Below, piece after piece: positions 5,369-13,282 of a stretch of DNA of 13,282 bases. The notes beneath the pieces are model-generated. The model was not told where the DNA came from, searched no databases, and worked only from the letters and a program-made list of their open reading frames with translations. The DNA lies in the NCBI GenBank assembly GCA_903821905.1, contig CAIJMQ010000038.1:1-13282 (forward strand), in the 5' to 3' direction. Origin of the DNA: an uncultured bacterium. GTDB taxonomy: Bacteria > CAIJMQ01. The translations under genes were made by a program, and so were the position numbers. Within the stretch, counting starts at the first letter, position 1, and the number at the start of each line of letters is the position of its first letter.

Positions 5369-5824
5369 CTAAATTCGGAATTCTTCTAATTTTGCAGCTA
5401 TATCATCAACTTTATCTTCTGTATTTTTGAAATAATTCTCCCATTTTTGCTTTGCCCATACTTCTATCCGATTTGAAACCCCAATGATTACAACTTCTTT
5501 GTTAATCCCTGCATACTCTTTTAAAGAAGGGGGGAAAGGAATTCTTCCCTGCGTATCTACAATACACAAGGAAGCACCCGAAAAGAGATGACGTGTAAAT
5601 GAGCGAGCATCCCGGGCAGTAATTGGCAAAGACTTAGCTTTATCTTCTAAGTTCTGCCACTCCCCTTGCGGAAAAAGAAAAAGACATCCATCAAGTCCTC
5701 TTGAGAGAACAAGTTTTTCTCCCTTCTTAAATGCCTTTCTGAGTTTTGCTGGAATAAAAAGTCGATTCTTCTCATCAAGAGTATGGCAATACTCCCCATA
5801 AAGGTGTTTAGTATTTTTCCCCAC
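5369..5824 (-). CDS. mraZ: MraZ, SpoVT/AbrB-fold transcriptional regulator of the dcw cluster
   Basis: MraZ is a DNA-binding regulator of its own operon, built of two tandem SpoVT/AbrB-like half-domains that assemble into rings. The first half shows GEYCHTLDEKNRLFIPAKLR and the second shows VDTQGRIPFPPSL followed by IIGVSNRIEVW, each with the family's D-x-x-x-R-(I/L) pattern. I start it at GTG 5824 (151 residues). A GGAG element lies 9 bases upstream of that GTG, and the conserved GEY block follows soon after, as in relatives that begin close to 'MFxGEY'. An in-frame GTG at 5839 would give 156 residues, but it falls at the predicted transcription start of the promoter at 5846-5873, so it would need leaderless initiation. 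It is first in the cluster and is very probably autoregulated through the TGGSG repeats at its 5' end. Confidence 0.93.
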   Translation of the reverse strand: MGKNTKHLYGEYCHTLDEKNRLFIPAKLRKAFKKGEKLVLSRGLDGCLFLFPQGEWQNLEDKAKSLPITARDARSFTRHLFSGASLCIVDTQGRIPFPPSLKEYAGINKEVVIIGVSNRIEVWAKQKWENYFKNTEDKVDDIAAKLEEFRI

Positions 5825-5843
5825 TTTCCCCCACTCCACGCCA
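5819..5843 (-). promoter_or_regulatory. Putative MraZ operator: three TGGSG direct repeats with 5-bp spacers
   Basis: On the minus strand TGGCG (5843-5839), TGGGG (5833-5829) and TGGGG (5823-5819) occur with exactly 5 bases between them, a 10-bp period on one face of the helix. MraZ proteins of E. coli are known to bind TGGGN repeats separated by 5 bases upstream of mraZ. The repeats start 2 bp after the -10 box and run over the transcription start to the mraZ start codon, a position suited to repression. That MraZ binds here is an inference from the pattern and its place. Confidence 0.75.
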
Positions 5844-5845
5844 CA

Positions 5846-5873
5846 ATTATAGTCTATCTTTAAAATCTGTCAA
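5846..5873 (-). promoter_or_regulatory. Consensus sigma-70-type promoter of the mraZ/dcw operon
   Basis: The minus strand carries a perfect -35 hexamer TTGACA (5873-5868), a 16-bp spacer and a perfect -10 hexamer TATAAT (5851-5846). The predicted transcription start is near 5839, about 15 bases before the chosen mraZ GTG. Such a strong core promoter next to operator-like repeats suggests that control is by repression. Confidence 0.85.
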
Positions 5874-5916
5874 GTATTGAAATTTTCCCCTTGCAATAGC
5901 TTTAAAAATTTTTTGG

Positions 5917-5945
5917 ATTGTACACAATATATAGAGGAAAAACAA
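5917..5945 (-). promoter_or_regulatory. Possible second, upstream mraZ promoter
   Basis: On the minus strand TTGTTT (5945-5940) is followed after 17 bp by TACAAT (5922-5917). Both hexamers are imperfect, but the spacing is ideal, and the site lies 44 bp upstream of the strong promoter. It could give a second transcript start for the dcw operon; in AT-rich DNA a chance match is possible. Confidence 0.35.
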
Positions 5946-5996
5946 GTCCATACCTCAACCTGATGGGGGGGGATTCTCCGCTAAAACTTATTGCTT

Positions 5997-6791
5997 TTAT
6001 TTTTGATATTCTTTTGGGTGTGGCACTACTATTACATAAGGTTTATTAGAAATTGGATTTTTTTGCACTACTAGAAGCGTATTATAAACTTCCTCCAGAA
6101 TTTGATATGTCAGGACTTTCTCGGGGCTATCAATCGAATGAACTCTTCCGTCTTTTAGAAGCAACAACCTATCACAATATTCACTCGCAAGATTAAGATC
6201 ATGAAAGATGGCTATAATTGTTAAGAAGTTATCCCTGTTTAATTGCCTTAATAAATCTAAAAGTCTAATTTGATGTCCTATATCTAAATGAGACGTTGGT
6301 TCATCTAATAAGAGGAGTTGTGGTTTTTGAGCTAAAGCACGTGCTATCGCAACACGTTGAATTTCCCCACCACTTAAATTACTAATAGCCCTTTCCTTTA
6401 GTTCAAATGTTTCAGTTAATCTCATCACATCTCGAGTAATTTCTTCATCAAGCGGAGTCTCTAGGAACTGAAATGTTTTCCTATGGGGAATCCTACCAAG
6501 GGAAACAAATTCTTCTACACTCATATCAAATTCCATGTTAAAAGTTTGAGGAACTACAGCAATTTTTTTAGCAATATCTTGAAAATTCATCTCGCCAATA
6601 TTTTCCCCATCCAGAATAATTTCACCTCTTACAGGTCGAATAAGTTTAGTTATCGTTTTAATTAGAGTTGTCTTCCCGGAACCATTAGGCCCAACAATCC
6701 CTAAGAATTCATTTCCCTTAACTTCAAAACTAATATTTTTTATAGTAAATCCCGATGGATAACCGCAAACAAGATTCTTTATCTTAAGCAT
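5997..6791 (-). CDS. btuD: ABC transporter ATPase, BtuD/FecE type (corrinoid import)
   Basis: This is the cytoplasmic ATPase that powers the type II importer formed with the permease just upstream. The 264 residues contain every catalytic element: Walker A GPNGSGKT (34-41), Q-loop Gln82 in VPQTF, the ABC signature LSGGE (139-143), Walker B LLLLDEP (159-165), a D-loop SHLD (167-170) and the switch His197 in IFHDLN. About 20 residues beyond the core (240-264) form a family-typical tail. It is the last gene of the operon, 9 bp after the permease. Sequence alone cannot tell cobalamin from haem or siderophore importers in this family; the upstream cobalamin riboswitch and the corrinoid-dependent methyltransferase genes favour cobalamin or a related corrinoid. 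Confidence 0.88.
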   Translation of the reverse strand: MLKIKNLVCGYPSGFTIKNISFEVKGNEFLGIVGPNGSGKTTLIKTITKLIRPVRGEIILDGENIGEMNFQDIAKKIAVVPQTFNMEFDMSVEEFVSLGRIPHRKTFQFLETPLDEEITRDVMRLTETFELKERAISNLSGGEIQRVAIARALAQKPQLLLLDEPTSHLDIGHQIRLLDLLRQLNRDNFLTIIAIFHDLNLASEYCDRLLLLKDGRVHSIDSPEKVLTYQILEEVYNTLLVVQKNPISNKPYVIVVPHPKEYQK

Positions 6792-6800
6792 ATTTCTCTC

Positions 6801-7844
6801 TCACTTAAACAGCAATCTTCTCTTGAGTATAGTATAAATAAAAAGAACTCCCCCAAGAATTCCTGTAATTACTCCTACAGGTAATTCCAATGGTGCAATA
6901 ACTGTTCTTGCCAGCAGGTCGCAAAAAATCAGGAAACCTCCACCTAGAAGAAAAGAAGAAACATTGAGTATACGATAGTCATTCCCAACAAACATCCTCA
7001 TAAGATGAGGGACCAAAAGCCCTACAAATCCTATTATCCCAGCAACAGATACGCAAAGCCCCGTCAAAATAGACGCTAGAATAAAAAGCAACTTTTTGGT
7101 TCTCTCTAAATTTACCCCTAAATGTATAGCTTCCTCTTCCCCTAAAAGTAGTGCTTTAAGATCGAAACAGAAAAAATAAGAAACAATCAGACCCAAAATA
7201 GATATAATAACTGTCCACCAAATTAAATTTGTATTGGGTTCTTCCAAAGAACCCATCATCCAGAAGACAATACCTTGTAAATTTTCAGTTTTAGAAATAG
7301 CCATAATAAGCATAAGAACGGAAGAACATATAAAACTTATCATTACTCCGCAAAGAAGAAGTTCATGCATCTCGAGGATTTTCTTTTTTATACTTAAAAA
7401 ATATAAAACTATAATTACAACACCAGCTCCTAAAAATCCAGACATAGGCATAGATATCACCCCGAAAATTTTCGCTATCCTGAATACAATATTCAAAGCT
7501 ACACCCAATGCTGCACCACCAGAAATTCCAAGAGTATATGGCTCAACCAAAGGATTTCGAAAAATTCCTTGTAGAATTACGCCTGTAAGAGATAGAGCTC
7601 CACCCACAGCAAAACCAAGCAGTATTCGCGGCAGACGAATATTGAAAAGGATAGAATATTCGGGTGTGTTTCTAGCGGAAATAACTGATATTATCTTTTC
7701 AAAGAAAAATCCACCTGAGCCTATGCAAAATGAAAGAAAACTAACTACAAAAACAAAGATTAATAAAATACATATTATGCTAAACCAGCGTATTAATCTC
7801 TTATTCCGATTTTCAGAAGGCTTTTTAGTTTTTGATGTGTTCAT
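6801..7844 (-). CDS. btuC: FecCD/BtuC-family ABC importer permease (corrinoid import)
   Basis: This inner-membrane permease probably forms a homodimer that moves corrinoid into the cytoplasm. The 347 residues are rich in hydrophobic helices, about ten as in BtuC, after a basic N-terminal tail (1-18). Family blocks are RLPR (70-73), LQGIFRNPLVEPYTLGISGG (91-110), GEEEAIHLGV (235-244), which forms the coupling region that meets the ATPase, GIIGFVGLLVPHLMR (269-283) and ELPVGVITGILGG (320-332). The start overlaps the 3' end of the binding-protein gene by 20 bp, which suggests translational coupling, and the ATPase follows after 9 bp. The riboswitch and the metH-like genes of the same operon support corrinoid over iron-siderophore as the cargo, though the fold is shared by both groups. 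Confidence 0.88.
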   Translation of the reverse strand: MNTSKTKKPSENRNKRLIRWFSIICILLIFVFVVSFLSFCIGSGGFFFEKIISVISARNTPEYSILFNIRLPRILLGFAVGGALSLTGVILQGIFRNPLVEPYTLGISGGAALGVALNIVFRIAKIFGVISMPMSGFLGAGVVIIVLYFLSIKKKILEMHELLLCGVMISFICSSVLMLIMAISKTENLQGIVFWMMGSLEEPNTNLIWWTVIISILGLIVSYFFCFDLKALLLGEEEAIHLGVNLERTKKLLFILASILTGLCVSVAGIIGFVGLLVPHLMRMFVGNDYRILNVSSFLLGGGFLIFCDLLARTVIAPLELPVGVITGILGGVLFIYTILKRRLLFK

Positions 7845-8688
7845 ATTCTACTTCTGGATGAAGAAGTTGAAATATTCTTTCCAAGGTTTCAACAAAACTT
7901 AATGGTGTTGGACTACATACATCATAAGAATCAATGATATATATCCTTTTGTTTGCTACTGCATTTATGGTGTCGAATTTTGACCAGATTTCTTTTTCAT
8001 TATTTGCTAATATCCCCATTTCTATAATAATAATTACATCTGGATTTTCTTTAATAATATATTCCCTACTAACGAGTCCATTTTCTCCAGCAGGACCAAT
8101 ATTAATACCACCAGCCAATACAATAAAGTCATTTATTAGAGAACTTTTTGTTGCAACCCAAAGAGGGTCTGCACCTATTTGAACAATAGCTTTTTGTTTA
8201 GACAGCCCTGTAGCTTCTTCCTCAAGCTTTGTTAATTTCCTCTTAGCAGTTAAAATAATTTCCCTCCCAACTTGTTCCTTGTTAACAAGTTTAGCTAAAC
8301 TTAAGAATTGTTCACCGAGTTGGTTAAAATTTTTGGCATCTTCAAAAATTTCTACTCTTATATTAAAACTTTTCAATCTTATTATAGTTTTGGGATTGGT
8401 TAAAGCCGTAGCAATCACTAAATCCGGTTTAAGTGTCAAAACCTTTTCTAAATTGACCTCCGTGACCGTTCCTATTTTCTCTCTATTCTCAAGTTGAGGA
8501 ACATTACAATATGTTGTAATACCCACAATCCTATCCTCTACTCCCAGAATTGAGAGTTGTCTGGTAACGGTTGGACCTAAAGAAATTATACGTTTTGGGA
8601 AATCATTGTTCTGGCAGAAAAGTGTTTCGGAAAGTAAAATAAGAAATAGGAAAAGGATAAAAAATATAATTTTCTTTGGATATTTCAT
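7825..8688 (-). CDS. btuF: BtuF-like periplasmic corrinoid-binding protein of the ABC importer
   Basis: This is a cluster A-II substrate-binding protein (periplasmic binding protein type III fold) that should capture corrinoid outside the membrane and deliver it to BtuCD. The 287 residues begin with a clear export signal: KYPKK followed by a hydrophobic stretch (about 8-20). A Cys occurs at 25, but TLFC is a poor lipobox, so it may be soluble or anchored by its signal. Family blocks follow: PKRIISLGPTVTRQLSILG (31-49), the VGITTYC segment (54-60), KIGTVTEVNLEKVLTLKPDL (71-90), and a long linking helix around 120-160. The C-terminal lobe holds GADPLWV and later NPDVIIII. It lies 18 bp after the methyltransferase gene and overlaps the permease gene by 20 bp. 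Haem or siderophore binding cannot be ruled out from sequence. Confidence 0.85.
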   Translation of the reverse strand: MKYPKKIIFFILFLFLILLSETLFCQNNDFPKRIISLGPTVTRQLSILGVEDRIVGITTYCNVPQLENREKIGTVTEVNLEKVLTLKPDLVIATALTNPKTIIRLKSFNIRVEIFEDAKNFNQLGEQFLSLAKLVNKEQVGREIILTAKRKLTKLEEEATGLSKQKAIVQIGADPLWVATKSSLINDFIVLAGGINIGPAGENGLVSREYIIKENPDVIIIIEMGILANNEKEIWSKFDTINAVANKRIYIIDSYDVCSPTPLSFVETLERIFQLLHPEVEYEHIKN

Positions 8689-8706: not shown

Positions 8707-9507
8707 TTATTTTAACTTGCCTTCTCTATATGCAGATATATATTCAATACCATACTCGTCAAATCCCGCAATTGCTCTTGCTGAAAAAAGGGCGTTTATC
8801 ATCCCTGTTTCAGTTGGGTCAATAATAGCCGCATCACATCCGGCTTCAATCAGCATCGCAAGAAAAGCTTTATTCAGGTTATTTCTTCGAGGTAAACCGA
8901 ATGATATATTTGAAAGTCCTAAGCAAATATGCACGGCTGCAAATTCTTGCTTAATAGTCCTTATTGCTTGGAGAATAAACCGCACCTGATTAGGTTCCGT
9001 AGAGATTGGTCTAACCAAAGGATCAATATATATTTTATCCTGACGAATTTTTTCTGTCTCTAAAAATTCCACCATTCTCCTTGCAATTTCTATCCTCCCT
9101 TCATAATCAGAAGGCATTCCTTTATCATCCATTGTCAACATTACGACAGACGTTTTGTATTGTTTGACAAGAGGCAAAATTTCTTCAATCTTTTTTTCTT
9201 CAGCTGTAATTGAATTTATTATAGTCCCCTCTCGATTGCAAATTTTCAGCCCTTCTTCAATTGCTTTCTCATTCGTAGAATCAAAAACCAAAGGCAGTTT
9301 CGTAGTTTTAGATACGACCTTGGTAAGCCAACTCATATCTTCAACCTCTTTCTTGGGATCGCCTCCAGCATTTATATCTATATGTGTAGCTCCGATTTTC
9401 TCTTGTTTATTTACCTCGGCAACAATAAACTTTTCATTTCTCTTCCATACTTCTTCCCTTATCTTTTCCCTCGTCATATTGATTCTTTCGCCAATTATTC
9501 TGAACAT
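8707..9507 (-). CDS. Stand-alone methyltetrahydrofolate:corrinoid methyltransferase (MetH pterin module / AcsE-like)
   Basis: This soluble TIM-barrel protein should transfer the methyl group of 5-methyltetrahydrofolate to cob(I)alamin on a partner corrinoid protein. The 266 residues match the length of AcsE and of the pterin domain of MetH. Visible blocks are IIGERIN (4-10), HIDINAGGD (42-50), FDSTN (75-79), the conserved Asn98 region IINS, YIDPLV (160-165) and GLSNISFGLP (197-206), all typical of pterin-binding methyltransferases rather than of folate-making dihydropteroate synthases. An AGGAGG lies 7 bases before the ATG, and the gene follows the homocysteine methyltransferase gene with a 1-bp gap. 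The pairing favours methionine synthesis; a Wood-Ljungdahl role with a corrinoid iron-sulfur protein is the main alternative, but no acs genes are near. Confidence 0.88.
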   Translation of the reverse strand: MFRIIGERINMTREKIREEVWKRNEKFIVAEVNKQEKIGATHIDINAGGDPKKEVEDMSWLTKVVSKTTKLPLVFDSTNEKAIEEGLKICNREGTIINSITAEEKKIEEILPLVKQYKTSVVMLTMDDKGMPSDYEGRIEIARRMVEFLETEKIRQDKIYIDPLVRPISTEPNQVRFILQAIRTIKQEFAAVHICLGLSNISFGLPRRNNLNKAFLAMLIEAGCDAAIIDPTETGMINALFSARAIAGFDEYGIEYISAYREGKLK

Positions 9508-9508
9508 G

Positions 9509-10435
9509 CTATATCCTCCTGCTATTTGTAAGATATTCGTCTACTTTTTTTCTAATTTGTTTTATATGCTCTGGAGTAGTCCCACAACAACCCCCAATAA
9601 TTTTCACTCCTGCTTCTATCAACTGAGGTACAAAAGAAGCTGTATCTTCAGGAGTTTGGGGATATAATGTCTTCCCATTTCTAAATACAGGCAGCCCAGC
9701 ATTCGGTTTTATCCACAAAGGGATAGATGTATATTTTTTCATTATCTTTGCAATAGCAACCATATCCTCAACTGTAACCGAACCACAATTTGCGCCAATT
9801 ATGTCCGGTTTTTCTTTTGCAATAGCCAAAATCGCCTGCTCAGGAGTTACTCCCATAATTGTCGCAAAACCTTTTTGAACCTTATTGAAACTAAAAGTTA
9901 CACCTACAGGTAAAGATGAGTTTTTCCTCACTGCTTTTAAAGCACACAAAGCTTCTTTTATATCGCTCATTGTCTCAATGATTACTCCATCGGCACCACC
10001 ACAAGTAACTCCTTTTCCACCATCAATAATTCCTTTCACCTGTTCAGAGTAAGCCTCGATAAATTCTGCCTCTTCAAAATTTCCCACTGGTTTCAAAAAT
10101 TTACCTGTCGGCCCAATAGAAGCAAAAACTAAAGATTCTCTTGCTTCTTCTTTGGACAACTCAACACCTATCTTGTTTATATGATTTATGCTAAGGGGAG
10201 ATATTTTTAGTTTTAAACTATTGGCTCCAAAGGTATTTGTAAGAATAATATCAGCGCCAGCTTCTATGTAACTTTTAGCAATCCATTTCACAAGAGATTG
10301 ATTCTGACGATTCCACTCTTCAGGAATCTCTCCTGTTTTAAGGCCTTTTTTTATCAATTCAGTTCCCCAGCCACCGTCAGCAACGAGGACTTTTTTCTCT
10401 TCCAGAAGTTTTTGTAATTTGTTCATGGGATTCAT
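9509..10435 (-). CDS. Homocysteine S-methyltransferase domain protein (MetH N-terminal module)
   Basis: This is a zinc-dependent enzyme of the family covering the MetH N-terminal domain, MmuM and betaine-homocysteine methyltransferase. It should pass a methyl group to homocysteine to make methionine. The 308 residues include ADGGWGTEL (19-27), ILTNTFGAN (64-72), ASIGPTG (105-111), the first zinc ligand Cys217 in GANCGS, and the paired ligands Cys283-Cys284 in GGCCGTTPEH (281-290), so the metal site is complete. Between helix and strand at 139-146 there is an unusual short stretch, GGKGVTCG, that I do not expect at this point in relatives. The neighbour one base downstream encodes the MetH pterin module, so the natural methyl donor is probably methyl-corrinoid. 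A corrinoid-binding domain is not fused to either protein. There is no clear Shine-Dalgarno; a second Met at residue 4 is an alternative start. Confidence 0.88.
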   Translation of the reverse strand: MNPMNKLQKLLEEKKVLVADGGWGTELIKKGLKTGEIPEEWNRQNQSLVKWIAKSYIEAGADIILTNTFGANSLKLKISPLSINHINKIGVELSKEEARESLVFASIGPTGKFLKPVGNFEEAEFIEAYSEQVKGIIDGGKGVTCGGADGVIIETMSDIKEALCALKAVRKNSSLPVGVTFSFNKVQKGFATIMGVTPEQAILAIAKEKPDIIGANCGSVTVEDMVAIAKIMKKYTSIPLWIKPNAGLPVFRNGKTLYPQTPEDTASFVPQLIEAGVKIIGGCCGTTPEHIKQIRKKVDEYLTNSRRI

Positions 10436-10478: not shown

Positions 10479-11195
10479 TTATTCTAAATCGTATAAATTG
10501 TCGTCTACAGATAAGTCTCCTAAAGAAGAATCATTAACACTTATATTATATTTTTTCTCTGTTGATTCTACGTGGCCATCACAAAAATCAGCATTTGCAA
10601 ATCCGCTATGCCTAAAATGAACATTGGGCCCATAGTAATAGCTAATATCTCCAGGAGCACGTAGATAACTATTGGCAATAATTTCACTTGAAAAAGAGGA
10701 CCATATAGCACTGTCAGCTAAAAGAATCGTTCCGGTAGGATTTATGATTTGGTTTGGTTTTATCGGAGGGACTGCTTGTCCATCCCACACCGAGTATCCA
10801 CCACCAATATATGTGGCATTGTATGCATAGCCTGTAAAAGGTCTGTCATATGATTTTACGGATTTTCTCGTGGGGCACTCAAAGATTTTGTTCTCCGATA
10901 AATAATCTCCAAGAATGCCCAATCGATAGTTTGCCCACCAATCATCGGTAGAGAAATCCCATGCAATTTCAGAGGTAGAAGTAAAATAGTATGCAGTCGG
11001 GAAATAGTCATTGTCATCCTGAAGATATTCTAAGAAAGATAGAGATAGCTGTCTTAAATTATTCTTGCATACTACTCCTCTCGCTTTTTCTCTTGCCTGA
11101 TTTAAAGCGGGAAAAAGTACTGCAGCGAGAATACCGATGATAGCAACAACAACTAGCAGTTCAATTAATGTAAAACCTACTCTATTCTTACCCAA
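10479..11195 (-). CDS. H-X9-DG (DUF1559-type) prepilin-like protein
   Basis: This is a type IV pilin/type II secretion pseudopilin-like protein of unknown specific role. The N-terminus is a class III signal: NRVG|FTLIE, with cleavage expected after Gly7 and the conserved Glu12 at mature position 5, followed by a hydrophobic helix to about residue 30. Then come [20 protein letters not shown] (31-50), a form typical of this family, and a large exported domain with Cys43 and Cys107. The H-X9-DG motif near the C-terminus is His196 to Asp206-Gly207. The family is expanded in Planctomycetes, Lentisphaerae and related uncultured groups. The TTG start at 11195 has AGGAGGTG (11213-11206) 10 bases upstream and places the prepilin signal correctly. 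It is the first gene behind the cobalamin riboswitch, 43 bp before the homocysteine methyltransferase gene, with no terminator between them. Confidence 0.9.
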
Positions 11196-11205
11196 ATAAA
11201 AATCA

Positions 11206-11213
11206 CACCTCCT
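11206..11213 (-). promoter_or_regulatory. Strong Shine-Dalgarno (AGGAGGTG) of the prepilin gene
   Basis: AGGAGGTG on the minus strand is a near-perfect complement to the 16S rRNA 3' end and decides the TTG start at 11195, although the spacing of 10-12 bases is on the long side. It follows the riboswitch and its downstream hairpin closely, so access to it could be what the riboswitch controls. Confidence 0.7.
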
Positions 11214-11220
11214 TTTCCAC

Positions 11221-11241
11221 GAAGAAAGCTATGATTTCTTC
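11221..11241 (-). other. Hairpin between riboswitch aptamer and Shine-Dalgarno (possible expression platform)
   Basis: The minus strand can form a 7-bp stem, GAAGAAA (11241-11235) with TTTCTTC (11227-11221), around a 7-base loop. Its 5' edge overlaps the last bases of the aptamer's closing P1 stem, so the two folds could compete. No U-tract follows, which argues against an intrinsic terminator and leaves translational control as the more likely mode. The stem is AU-rich and weak, so this is tentative. Confidence 0.35.
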
Positions 11242-11393
11242 TTCTGGGGAATATCCTGACTTAAGGAATCTTTCTACTCACCCTCGCCTTCTTCCGACTG
11301 TAACGCCGGGATGGCTTATCTTGAGGGCTTTCGTCCTCCTCTTACAGTAGCGGGACTGTCACCGATTCTCACGGTGTTCCTCACTCCAGAAAA
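11240..11393 (-). ncRNA. Cobalamin riboswitch (B12 element)
   Basis: This RNA leader binds a cobalamin and, when bound, usually lowers expression of downstream genes. On the minus strand the hallmark core appears in order: ACCGTGAGAATCGGTGACAG (11375-11356 region), then GTCCCGCTACTGTAA (11356-11342), a GCC-containing arm near 11315, and the 3' B12-box variant AAGTCAGGA (11262-11254). The ends pair as a P1 stem: TTCTGG (11391-11386) with CCAGAA (11247-11242). The element lies between an extended -10 promoter and a prepilin gene; the homocysteine and corrinoid methyltransferase genes and a BtuFCD-type importer follow in the same direction, an expected regulon. Exact ends and ligand preference (adenosyl- or methyl/hydroxocobalamin) cannot be set by eye. 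Confidence 0.9.
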
Positions 11394-11418
11394 GAATACT
11401 ATATTTAATTGTGATGCA

Positions 11419-11446
11419 ATTATAACAGGAAAATTTTAATTATCAA
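11419..11446 (-). promoter_or_regulatory. Extended -10 promoter of the cobalamin-riboswitch operon
   Basis: On the minus strand TTGATA (11446-11441), a 16-bp spacer and TATAAT (11424-11419), with TG one base upstream of the -10 (11427-11426), make a good sigma-70-type promoter. The predicted start near 11412 lies about 20 bases before the riboswitch P1 stem. The intergenic stretch 11196-11539 thus holds a Shine-Dalgarno, a riboswitch, this promoter and a hairpin; I see no further gene in it. Confidence 0.75.
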
Positions 11447-11456
11447 ATCAACATAA

Positions 11457-11520
11457 ACCCCGCAACGTAAGGCATCGGAAAAATTTCCCGAAGGGATATT
11501 TTTCCGATACTCTGCGGGGT
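11457..11520 (-). terminator. Nested hairpin downstream of pheS (terminator or palindromic repeat)
   Basis: An outer 8-bp repeat ACCCCGCA (11457-11464) pairs with TGCGGGGT (11513-11520). Inside it an 11-bp stem ATCGGAAAAAT (11474-11484) pairs with its exact complement (11498-11508), and inside that TCCC/GGGA closes a 3-base loop, with one mismatch between. It begins 20 bp after the pheS stop codon. The U-tract expected after an intrinsic terminator is poor on either strand (GGGGTTTATGTT on the minus strand), so it may instead be a REP-like palindrome or a 3'-end stabiliser. Confidence 0.5.
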
Positions 11521-12680: not shown

Positions 12681-12746
12681 AGTTTTGGATAGTATGTTTT
12701 AATATTAATCTCGTTTTTATATATGTGAAAGTTAATTTTAGAACCT

Positions 12747-13282
12747 ATGCGTATACTTATTGTGGAAGATGAGAAAAAAATCGCTAATTTTATTAAGCGT
12801 GGGTTGAGAGAAGAAAATTACTCTGCAGATATTACTTACGACGGAGAGATGTTACGGAAAAGCGAACAAATGCTTCAAATGGTCCTGGATAATTTTCCTG
12901 GAGTGGTATTTTGGAAAGACAGACATTCGAATTATTTGGGATGTAATCAGTCTTTTGCAACCGGAGCAGGATTAAATAGTCCGGCTGAGATTGTTGGAAA
13001 AACTGACTTTGAATTACCATGGGCATCAACAGAAGCCATTAATTACCGTAAAGACGATTTTGACGTCATGGAACATGGTAAAGGAAGATTGCACATTATT
13101 GAAATGCAGCATCAATCCGATGGTAAGGTAATATGGTTGGACACAAGCAAATTTCCTTTGCGAAATTCACTTGGTCAAGTCGTTGGTGTGATTGGTGTAT
13201 CCAATGACATTTCCATGCTCAAGATGGCAGAACAAGAATTAATTAATACGAACAAGGAACTTGCCTATCAAAATAGGGAGAA
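12747..13282 (+). CDS. Chimeric receiver/PAS protein, partial (runs off the right edge)
   Basis: The frame opens at ATG 12747 and stays open for 178 codons to the window end. Residues 1-34 read as the start of an OmpR-type response-regulator receiver (MRILIVEDEKKIANFIKRGL, then YSADITYDGE), with acidic residues Glu7 and Asp8. The receiver then stops: the phospho-accepting Asp expected near 50 and the remaining strands are missing. From about residue 37 the protein is a PAS sensor domain: LRKSEQMLQMVLDNFPG, VFWKD (54-58), a Trp-rich middle and GVIGVSNDIS before a coiled coil (about 155 onward). Such a PAS-coiled-coil usually leads into a histidine kinase, here off the edge. The joint lies near 12845-12855. 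A receiver of about 120 residues would be expected, so this is a deletion fusion, a pseudogene start or an assembly misjoin. Confidence 0.7.
   Translation, partial: MRILIVEDEKKIANFIKRGLREENYSADITYDGEMLRKSEQMLQMVLDNFPGVVFWKDRHSNYLGCNQSFATGAGLNSPAEIVGKTDFELPWASTEAINYRKDDFDVMEHGKGRLHIIEMQHQSDGKVIWLDTSKFPLRNSLGQVVGVIGVSNDISMLKMAEQELINTNKELAYQNRE

Follow-up and report, generated by a model that had tools for sequence, protein, structure and literature searches.

A pilin-like gene stands directly behind a cobalamin riboswitch, at the head of a B12 operon, in the 13,282 nt stretch of DNA from an uncultured bacterium that was analysed here as a whole (the window). On sequence grounds, its product belongs to a clade of pilins that accompany cobalamin riboswitches. 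The first-pass annotation had suggested that the pilin may belong to the B12 regulon, and this is now strongly supported by the conserved pairing of riboswitch and pilin and by the distinctness of the clade. We think it probable, though well short of certain, that this is a dedicated B12-regulon pilin that captures corrinoid, passes it to BtuF and fills the slot of the receptor BtuB. Such pilins stand directly behind cobalamin riboswitches in several phyla, usually heading B12 uptake genes and nearly always where no outer-membrane B12 receptor of the usual type was found, and this distribution suggests an unrecognised, pilus-based form of B12 acquisition.

Corrinoids exceed ordinary porins in size, a problem for which Gram-negative bacteria are known to use the TonB-dependent receptor BtuB. 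Whole lineages nevertheless possess BtuFCD and cobalamin riboswitches with no TonB-dependent receptor found, and have the pilin clade in its place. If the pilin binds corrinoid, this would explain how these bacteria get B12, would add pili to the nutrient-uptake devices for small molecules, and would give the DUF1559/H-X9-DG pilins, which are present in tens of copies per genome and for which we know of no function, a first ligand that can be tested.

The riboswitch-led operon of the window

The window belongs to a 1.3 Mb assembly (G000) that is 84% complete. Its family is Ratteibacteria-like, the named MAG relatives L072 and L073 being Omnitrophota and Ratteibacteria. The operon lies on the minus strand and begins with a sigma-70-like, TG-extended promoter-like site (TTGATA-16-TATAAT, 11419-11446), a consensus match at 11 of 12 positions and the best of eight sites in a consensus scan. 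Behind it lies a cobalamin riboswitch aptamer (11229-11405, minus strand), which the covariance model RF00174 matched in full (model positions 1-189) at 66.1 bits, against a gathering score of 31.5 (E 8.8e-15); an RF00174 search of the genome returned this single match. Between the aptamer and the pilin gene, the minimum-energy fold contains a hairpin (11198-11239, minus strand; energy of the folded stretch -20.7 kcal/mol, z -2.87) whose 3′ arm contains the pilin Shine-Dalgarno sequence AGGAGGU (11213-11207) and terminates in a U-run (UUUUUAUUU). Because of these two features, this stable hairpin is likely to be the expression platform, as either a terminator or a Shine-Dalgarno-sequestering switch, and a hairpin with the Shine-Dalgarno sequence is also readable in the relatives G001, G002 and G003.

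The promoter, cobalamin riboswitch and Shine-Dalgarno sequence that the first-pass annotation had read ahead of the prepilin gene are thus borne out; the location of its interval (10479-11393) stands, but its extent does not, as the riboswitch reaches 11405 and the promoter 11446. Its account of methyltransferase and BtuFCD-type genes on the same strand, with no intervening terminator, agrees with the Pfam matches and with a terminator scan of the window, which found no terminator-like site on the minus strand between the riboswitch and the methyltransferase; the sequence gives no sign of what the annotation had set against its own proposal on this point, a pilin with its own promoter and a transcript that does not respond to B12.

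The pilin gene (10479-11195, minus strand) has a TTG start and encodes 238 aa. We assign it to the type A B12-regulon pilins (N_methyl plus DUF1559, with H-X9-DG) from its Pfam matches and its membership of the linked clade. The N-terminus carries a class III signal, consisting of the GFTLIE cleavage/methylation motif and a hydrophobic helix, and matches PF07963 (N_methyl; 32.6 versus 21.2 bits) and TIGR02532 (27.0 versus 16.3). The match to DUF1559/SBP_bac_10 (PF07596; 34.5 versus 23.3 bits) aligns residues 33-88 only, and the H-X9-DG letters were read directly near the C-terminus (H196, D206 and G207); no model named for H-X9-DG was among the NCBIfam matches of the protein. By Pfam it has neither a plug domain nor a beta-barrel, and so is no BtuB or TonB-dependent receptor. 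Structure prediction of the linked pilin from seven sequences gave a pLDDT of 34, and a PDB sequence search with the linked-pilin profile found no solved relative of the ectodomain, the matches to known pilins being confined almost entirely to the pilin helix.

The pilin gene is followed on the minus strand by genes for a homocysteine S-methyltransferase (9509-10435; PF02574, 212 bits) and a methyltetrahydrofolate:corrinoid methyltransferase-like protein (8707-9507; PF00809, with NF005719 over its cut-off), which represent the N-terminal and pterin parts of a split MetH. Next comes a BtuFCD-type importer, with Peripla_BP_2, FecCD permease and ABC ATPase in order: a BtuF-like periplasmic binding protein (7825-8688; PF01497), a BtuC-like (FecCD) permease (6801-7844; PF01032) and a BtuD-like ABC ATPase (5997-6791; PF00005), all on the same strand. 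The best NCBIfam matches of the first two were to BtuF and BtuC, and the third matched a heme/corrinoid ATPase; all fall below the equivalog cut-offs, so the assignment of a corrinoid substrate rests on the riboswitch and synteny.

Several further observations concern the operon and its surroundings. The split methionine synthase (8707-10435) comprises homocysteine and pterin parts with no cobalamin-binding domain, and its corrinoid-binding part must be encoded elsewhere or be provided by another corrinoid protein. Upstream, direct reading places the boundary of the operon at a large inverted repeat (approximately 11459-11520) after pheS. Downstream, the operon runs straight into mraZ and the division cluster, mraZ-mraW-ftsL-ftsI-murE, on the same strand (window 5369-5996; L033, L034 and L137), and the B12 operon precedes mraZ in each of the four family genomes. 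At the window end, a partial ORF on the plus strand (12744-13282) starts like a response-regulator receiver and becomes PAS sensor-like after about 30 residues; it is possibly a fused or truncated receiver.

Conservation of the pairing and of the pilin

The first-pass annotation had made its proposal turn on whether relatives keep the pairing and whether the pilins concerned are distinct from others, and both were found. A cobalamin-class riboswitch leads into a pilin gene at 26 loci in 25 genomes of several phyla: those of the window's family, 15 genomes of a second phylum and six genomes of other families. The aptamers ahead of the linked pilins represent three cobalamin riboswitch models (RF00174, RF01482-like and RF01689). 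The gene sets behind the pilin differ (BtuFCD with or without the methyltransferase, CobU-CobT, CobS-CbiB-CbiA-CobU-CobT, MetE, or none), and where an operon follows, its genes are B12-related. Relatives with the operon but without the pilin, which the annotation had named as counter-evidence, did not occur, every close relative found with the operon having a pilin at this position.

The pilin heads the operon in all four family genomes (G000-G003), as type A in G000 and G001 (C19), as a pair with A ahead of B in G002, and as type B in G003, where the riboswitch is cut by the contig end (35 bits, 5′ truncated). A second, stronger riboswitch of G001 (119 bits), on another contig, also heads a pilin, followed by the B12-independent MetE (PF01717/PF08267), a small ORF, the flavin-dependent thymidylate synthase ThyX and a type B pilin fragment; RNA folding places a strong terminator-type hairpin between this riboswitch and its pilin. 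Pilin-type genes make up approximately 1% of all genes in the family genomes, where five of five riboswitches lead pilins, as against none of 29 riboswitch loci of other phyla. Chance adjacency was rejected on these counts and on the conservation of the arrangement.

Some details of these loci deserve mention in their own right. In G002 (L034 8715-10296), the type A and type B genes stand in tandem behind one riboswitch, and relatives retain just one of the two, suggesting differential loss from a duplicated pair. ThyX recurs near the pilin in B12 riboswitch operons, in G001 before the type B fragment (L032 8784-9964) and in G258, a genome of another family, between the pilin and BtuF (L189 4333-6850).

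Scanning named genomes with the methyltransferase yielded three more distant carriers (L074, L075 and L081), which each have RF00174, pilin, methyltransferase, BtuF, BtuC and BtuD. The phylum of L081 (G062) differs from that of the window, since its member G064 is the same as G302, which is rated ‘same domain’ only. This second phylum was represented by 35 genomes, 26 of them with RF00174, and in 14 of the 26 a type A pilin is the first gene after a riboswitch; G066 adds a linked pilin whose riboswitch is truncated at the contig start (31.2 bits). After the pilin come the methyltransferase plus BtuFCD, BtuFCD directly, CobU-CobT (G082 and G086) or CobS-CbiB-CbiA-CobU-CobT (G070), and in three further genomes (G069, G083 and G089) the pilin lies at a contig end, next to genes for the methyltransferase, BtuF or CobA. 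As a separate observation, G070 (L136 1879-3297) and G071 (L112) have an unknown protein of 410-470 aa first behind a strong cobalamin riboswitch, followed in G070 by a gene resembling a CobD/CobC-type aminotransferase.

Other lineages were sought with a linked-pilin profile (A4) over 386 genomes. Outside both phyla, six of the genomes among its best matches have the pilin in a cobalamin riboswitch unit. The pilin is alone behind the riboswitch in G317 (RF00174, 90.8 bits), G332 (52.5 bits) and G010 (AdoCbl-II, 38.7 bits). RF01482 is the best model in G258 and G116, at 49.9 and 46.2 bits slightly below its gathering score of 50, and the riboswitch-like element is followed by the pilin and BtuF-C-D, or by the pilin and BtuF-C up to the contig end. 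The sixth genome, G247, has RF00174 at 109 bits, with two predicted secreted proteins ahead of the pilin and BtuC-BtuD just upstream. Since they came from a linked-pilin profile, the linked pilins beyond the two main phyla represent a sampling that favours the clade, and many of the sampled genomes are incomplete assemblies. The G247 locus (L188 5109-6922) is of interest in itself: one of its secreted proteins carries a PEP-CTERM sorting motif, and the pair is followed by a type B pilin and an OmpA/LysM protein. Tested as relatives of B12-capture proteins, the two gave no significant Pfam or PDB match other than that PEP-CTERM, and it is possible that they are further B12-capture proteins.

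The linked pilins are also set apart by their sequences. In a maximum-likelihood tree of 65 pilins, a single branch (support 90/95) separates all 28 linked pilins from the rest, which include unlinked paralogues from the same genomes. The label linked or unlinked (28 versus 37) changes once on this tree, versus 21 times in shuffles, and none of the 500 shuffles needed so few changes. Run over 42 genomes, the A4 profile gave 21 matches of at least 287 bits, all adjoining B12 genes, and the next match scored 196; the window pilin, itself in the profile, scored 402 bits against at most 196 below the gap. Between the two phyla (window versus G062), the pilin ectodomain is 62% identical, and so is more conserved than any neighbouring enzyme or transporter (methyltransferase (HMT) 54%, BtuD 44%, BtuC 42%, BtuF 35%). 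The motif HFRH (aa 193-196 of the window pilin; 10608-10619, minus strand), at the start of the H-X9-DG region, is present in 24 of the 28 linked pilins and in none of the 37 unlinked ones, and a second hallmark of the linked pilins is GYxYNxxYIGG. Both are candidate ligand positions.

A putative pilus route for corrinoids

A search for the TonB plug domain (PF07715) found none in G000-G003, which for the window's own genome upholds the earlier statement that BtuB is not present here. The domain occurred in one of 28 linked-pilin genomes versus 10 of 23 other tested genomes (Fisher p 0.0012, with kinship ignored and many assemblies incomplete). The exception, G332, has a linked pilin and one TonB-dependent receptor that does not adjoin a riboswitch. 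In five relatives (G004, G072, G085, G087 and G092), none of which has a linked pilin, a receptor stands directly behind a cobalamin riboswitch. As the receptor takes this position in these non-carriers and was found in only one carrier, the pilin and the TonB-dependent receptor appear to occupy the same slot. The locus in G004 (L035 2060-4713) has two tandem cobalamin riboswitches, followed by a BtuB-like receptor with ExbB/ExbD/TonB-like genes, and no TonB plug domain other than that of this receptor turned up in the window's class.

A secretin was present in all 31 genomes searched, 27 linked genomes among them. The window's own genome encodes GspD (516 versus 351 bits) and PilT (TIGR01420; 449 versus 319 bits) over their cut-offs, PilB/GspE-type ATPases (one over the GspE cut-off), GspF/PilC and PilQ matches below theirs, and a PilM-like protein, and so has the gene content expected of a retractable type IVa pilus (secretin, PilB, PilC and PilT). 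With secretin, ATPases and PilT present, pilus extension and retraction through the outer-membrane secretin are possible. The literature searched held no example of small-molecule passage through a secretin.

The distribution of TonB-dependent receptors and the presence of secretin and PilT fit a model where the pilin stands in for BtuB. When corrinoid is scarce, the riboswitch, presumably OFF with B12, would permit transcription or translation; the pilin would be made, processed by prepilin peptidase, and inserted into a type IV pilus or type II machine as a minor or (pseudo)pilus subunit. The secretin of that machine would cross the outer membrane and could bring the pilin to the surface, where its conserved ectodomain would capture corrinoid and hand it over to BtuF, the corrinoid presumably passing through the secretin, and BtuCD would then import it. 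The pilin would thereby take the slot held elsewhere by the TonB-dependent receptor BtuB.

Pilins are commonly adhesive, and the linked pilin could instead equip a B12-regulated attachment pilus that binds cobamide-producing cells or particles without contacting corrinoid, uptake proceeding through an unrelated porin. The genomes with the pilin alone behind the switch (G317, G332 and G010) would suit such a role. However, the pilin gene often stands immediately before btuF, overlapping or abutting it in G116 and G078, carriers almost wholly lack a detected TonB-dependent receptor, which replacement explains better, and so highly conserved an ectodomain would be unusual for an adhesin that meets changing partners; we regard this explanation as unlikely. 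We consider it rather improbable that the protein is a B12-regulated pseudopilin that exports other B12-capture or envelope proteins and has no corrinoid contact itself: most loci have no secreted cargo, only the pilin with transporter or salvage enzymes, and a pseudopilin for a single cargo should need no ectodomain so conserved, even though a type II machine is present (GspD over cut-off) and G247 has its two predicted secreted proteins, one with PEP-CTERM, between riboswitch and pilin. The ligand might also be another B12-related one, such as cobalt, a lower-ligand base or a siderophore-like compound, as HFRH resembles a metal ligand and the riboswitch says only that the gene is wanted at low corrinoid, but the genes around the pilin encode corrinoid importers and salvage enzymes (BtuFCD, CobU and CobS) and not cobalt importers or lower-ligand enzymes, which leaves this reading with little probability. 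Finally, the plain alternative raised at first pass, the late insertion or hitch-hiking of a multi-copy pilin gene with no B12 function, is scarcely credible and was rejected, for although pilin genes are plentiful (approximately 12-20 pilin-type matches per small genome in the window's class), the position is kept across 25 genomes and several sets of downstream genes, the linked copies form one distinct clade and are in no case a random paralogue, both separate G001 riboswitches lead pilins, and a cobalamin riboswitch was found at none of 20 unlinked paralogue loci tested.

We therefore prefer the reading of a corrinoid-capturing pilin. A wider proposal, which we put forward tentatively and rate at somewhat less than an even chance, is that a pilin that binds corrinoid and is extended and pulled back through a secretin constitutes a new vitamin route across the outer membrane, replaces the receptor in several phyla, and may serve as a model for the H-X9-DG/DUF1559 families, with one substrate-specific pilin per nutrient.

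Comparison with known systems

Our searches found no paper in the open literature that links cobalamin riboswitches with these prepilins, and no earlier ligand or riboswitch link for DUF1559/H-X9-DG prepilins in the literature searched. The nearest functional counterpart is B12 uptake of the Escherichia coli type, with a btuB riboswitch, the TonB-dependent receptor BtuB and BtuFCD (PMC10404256). Common to that system and the window are control of the first gene by a cobalamin riboswitch, a BtuF-C-D-like importer and the need to bring a large corrinoid over an outer membrane; the window differs in having a pilin at the place of btuB, and no TonB plug domain was found in its genome.

The surface B12-capture lipoproteins BtuG and BtuH of Bacteroides show that B12 loci recruit such proteins (PMC6143338, PMC8941943, PMC10404256). 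Like them, the pilin would be an accessory surface protein from a riboswitch-led B12 locus, its surface location being presumed. In contrast, neither Bacteroides protein is a pilin (one is a beta-propeller, the other a lipoprotein of another kind), and BtuG partners a BtuB receptor, whereas the window has a pilin without a receptor.

The window pilin shares its N-terminal helix, DUF1559 match (SBP_bac_10, PF07596) and H-X9-DG letters with the prepilins of Planctomycetes and their relatives, but unlike the other DUF1559/H-X9-DG paralogues it belongs to a separate clade marked by GYxYNxxYIGG and HFRH. The name solute-binding family has been applied to DUF1559 (PMC2754498), and the pili-like fibres of planctomycetes bind dextran, possibly before its internalisation (PMC5394234). 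These fibres offer a precedent for a pilus-like structure that binds a nutrient, although that nutrient is a macromolecule and not a vitamin, and the fibre protein has not been identified as a member of the linked clade. Taken together, a family described as solute-binding and fibres that bind dextran make a nutrient-binding pilin plausible by analogy.
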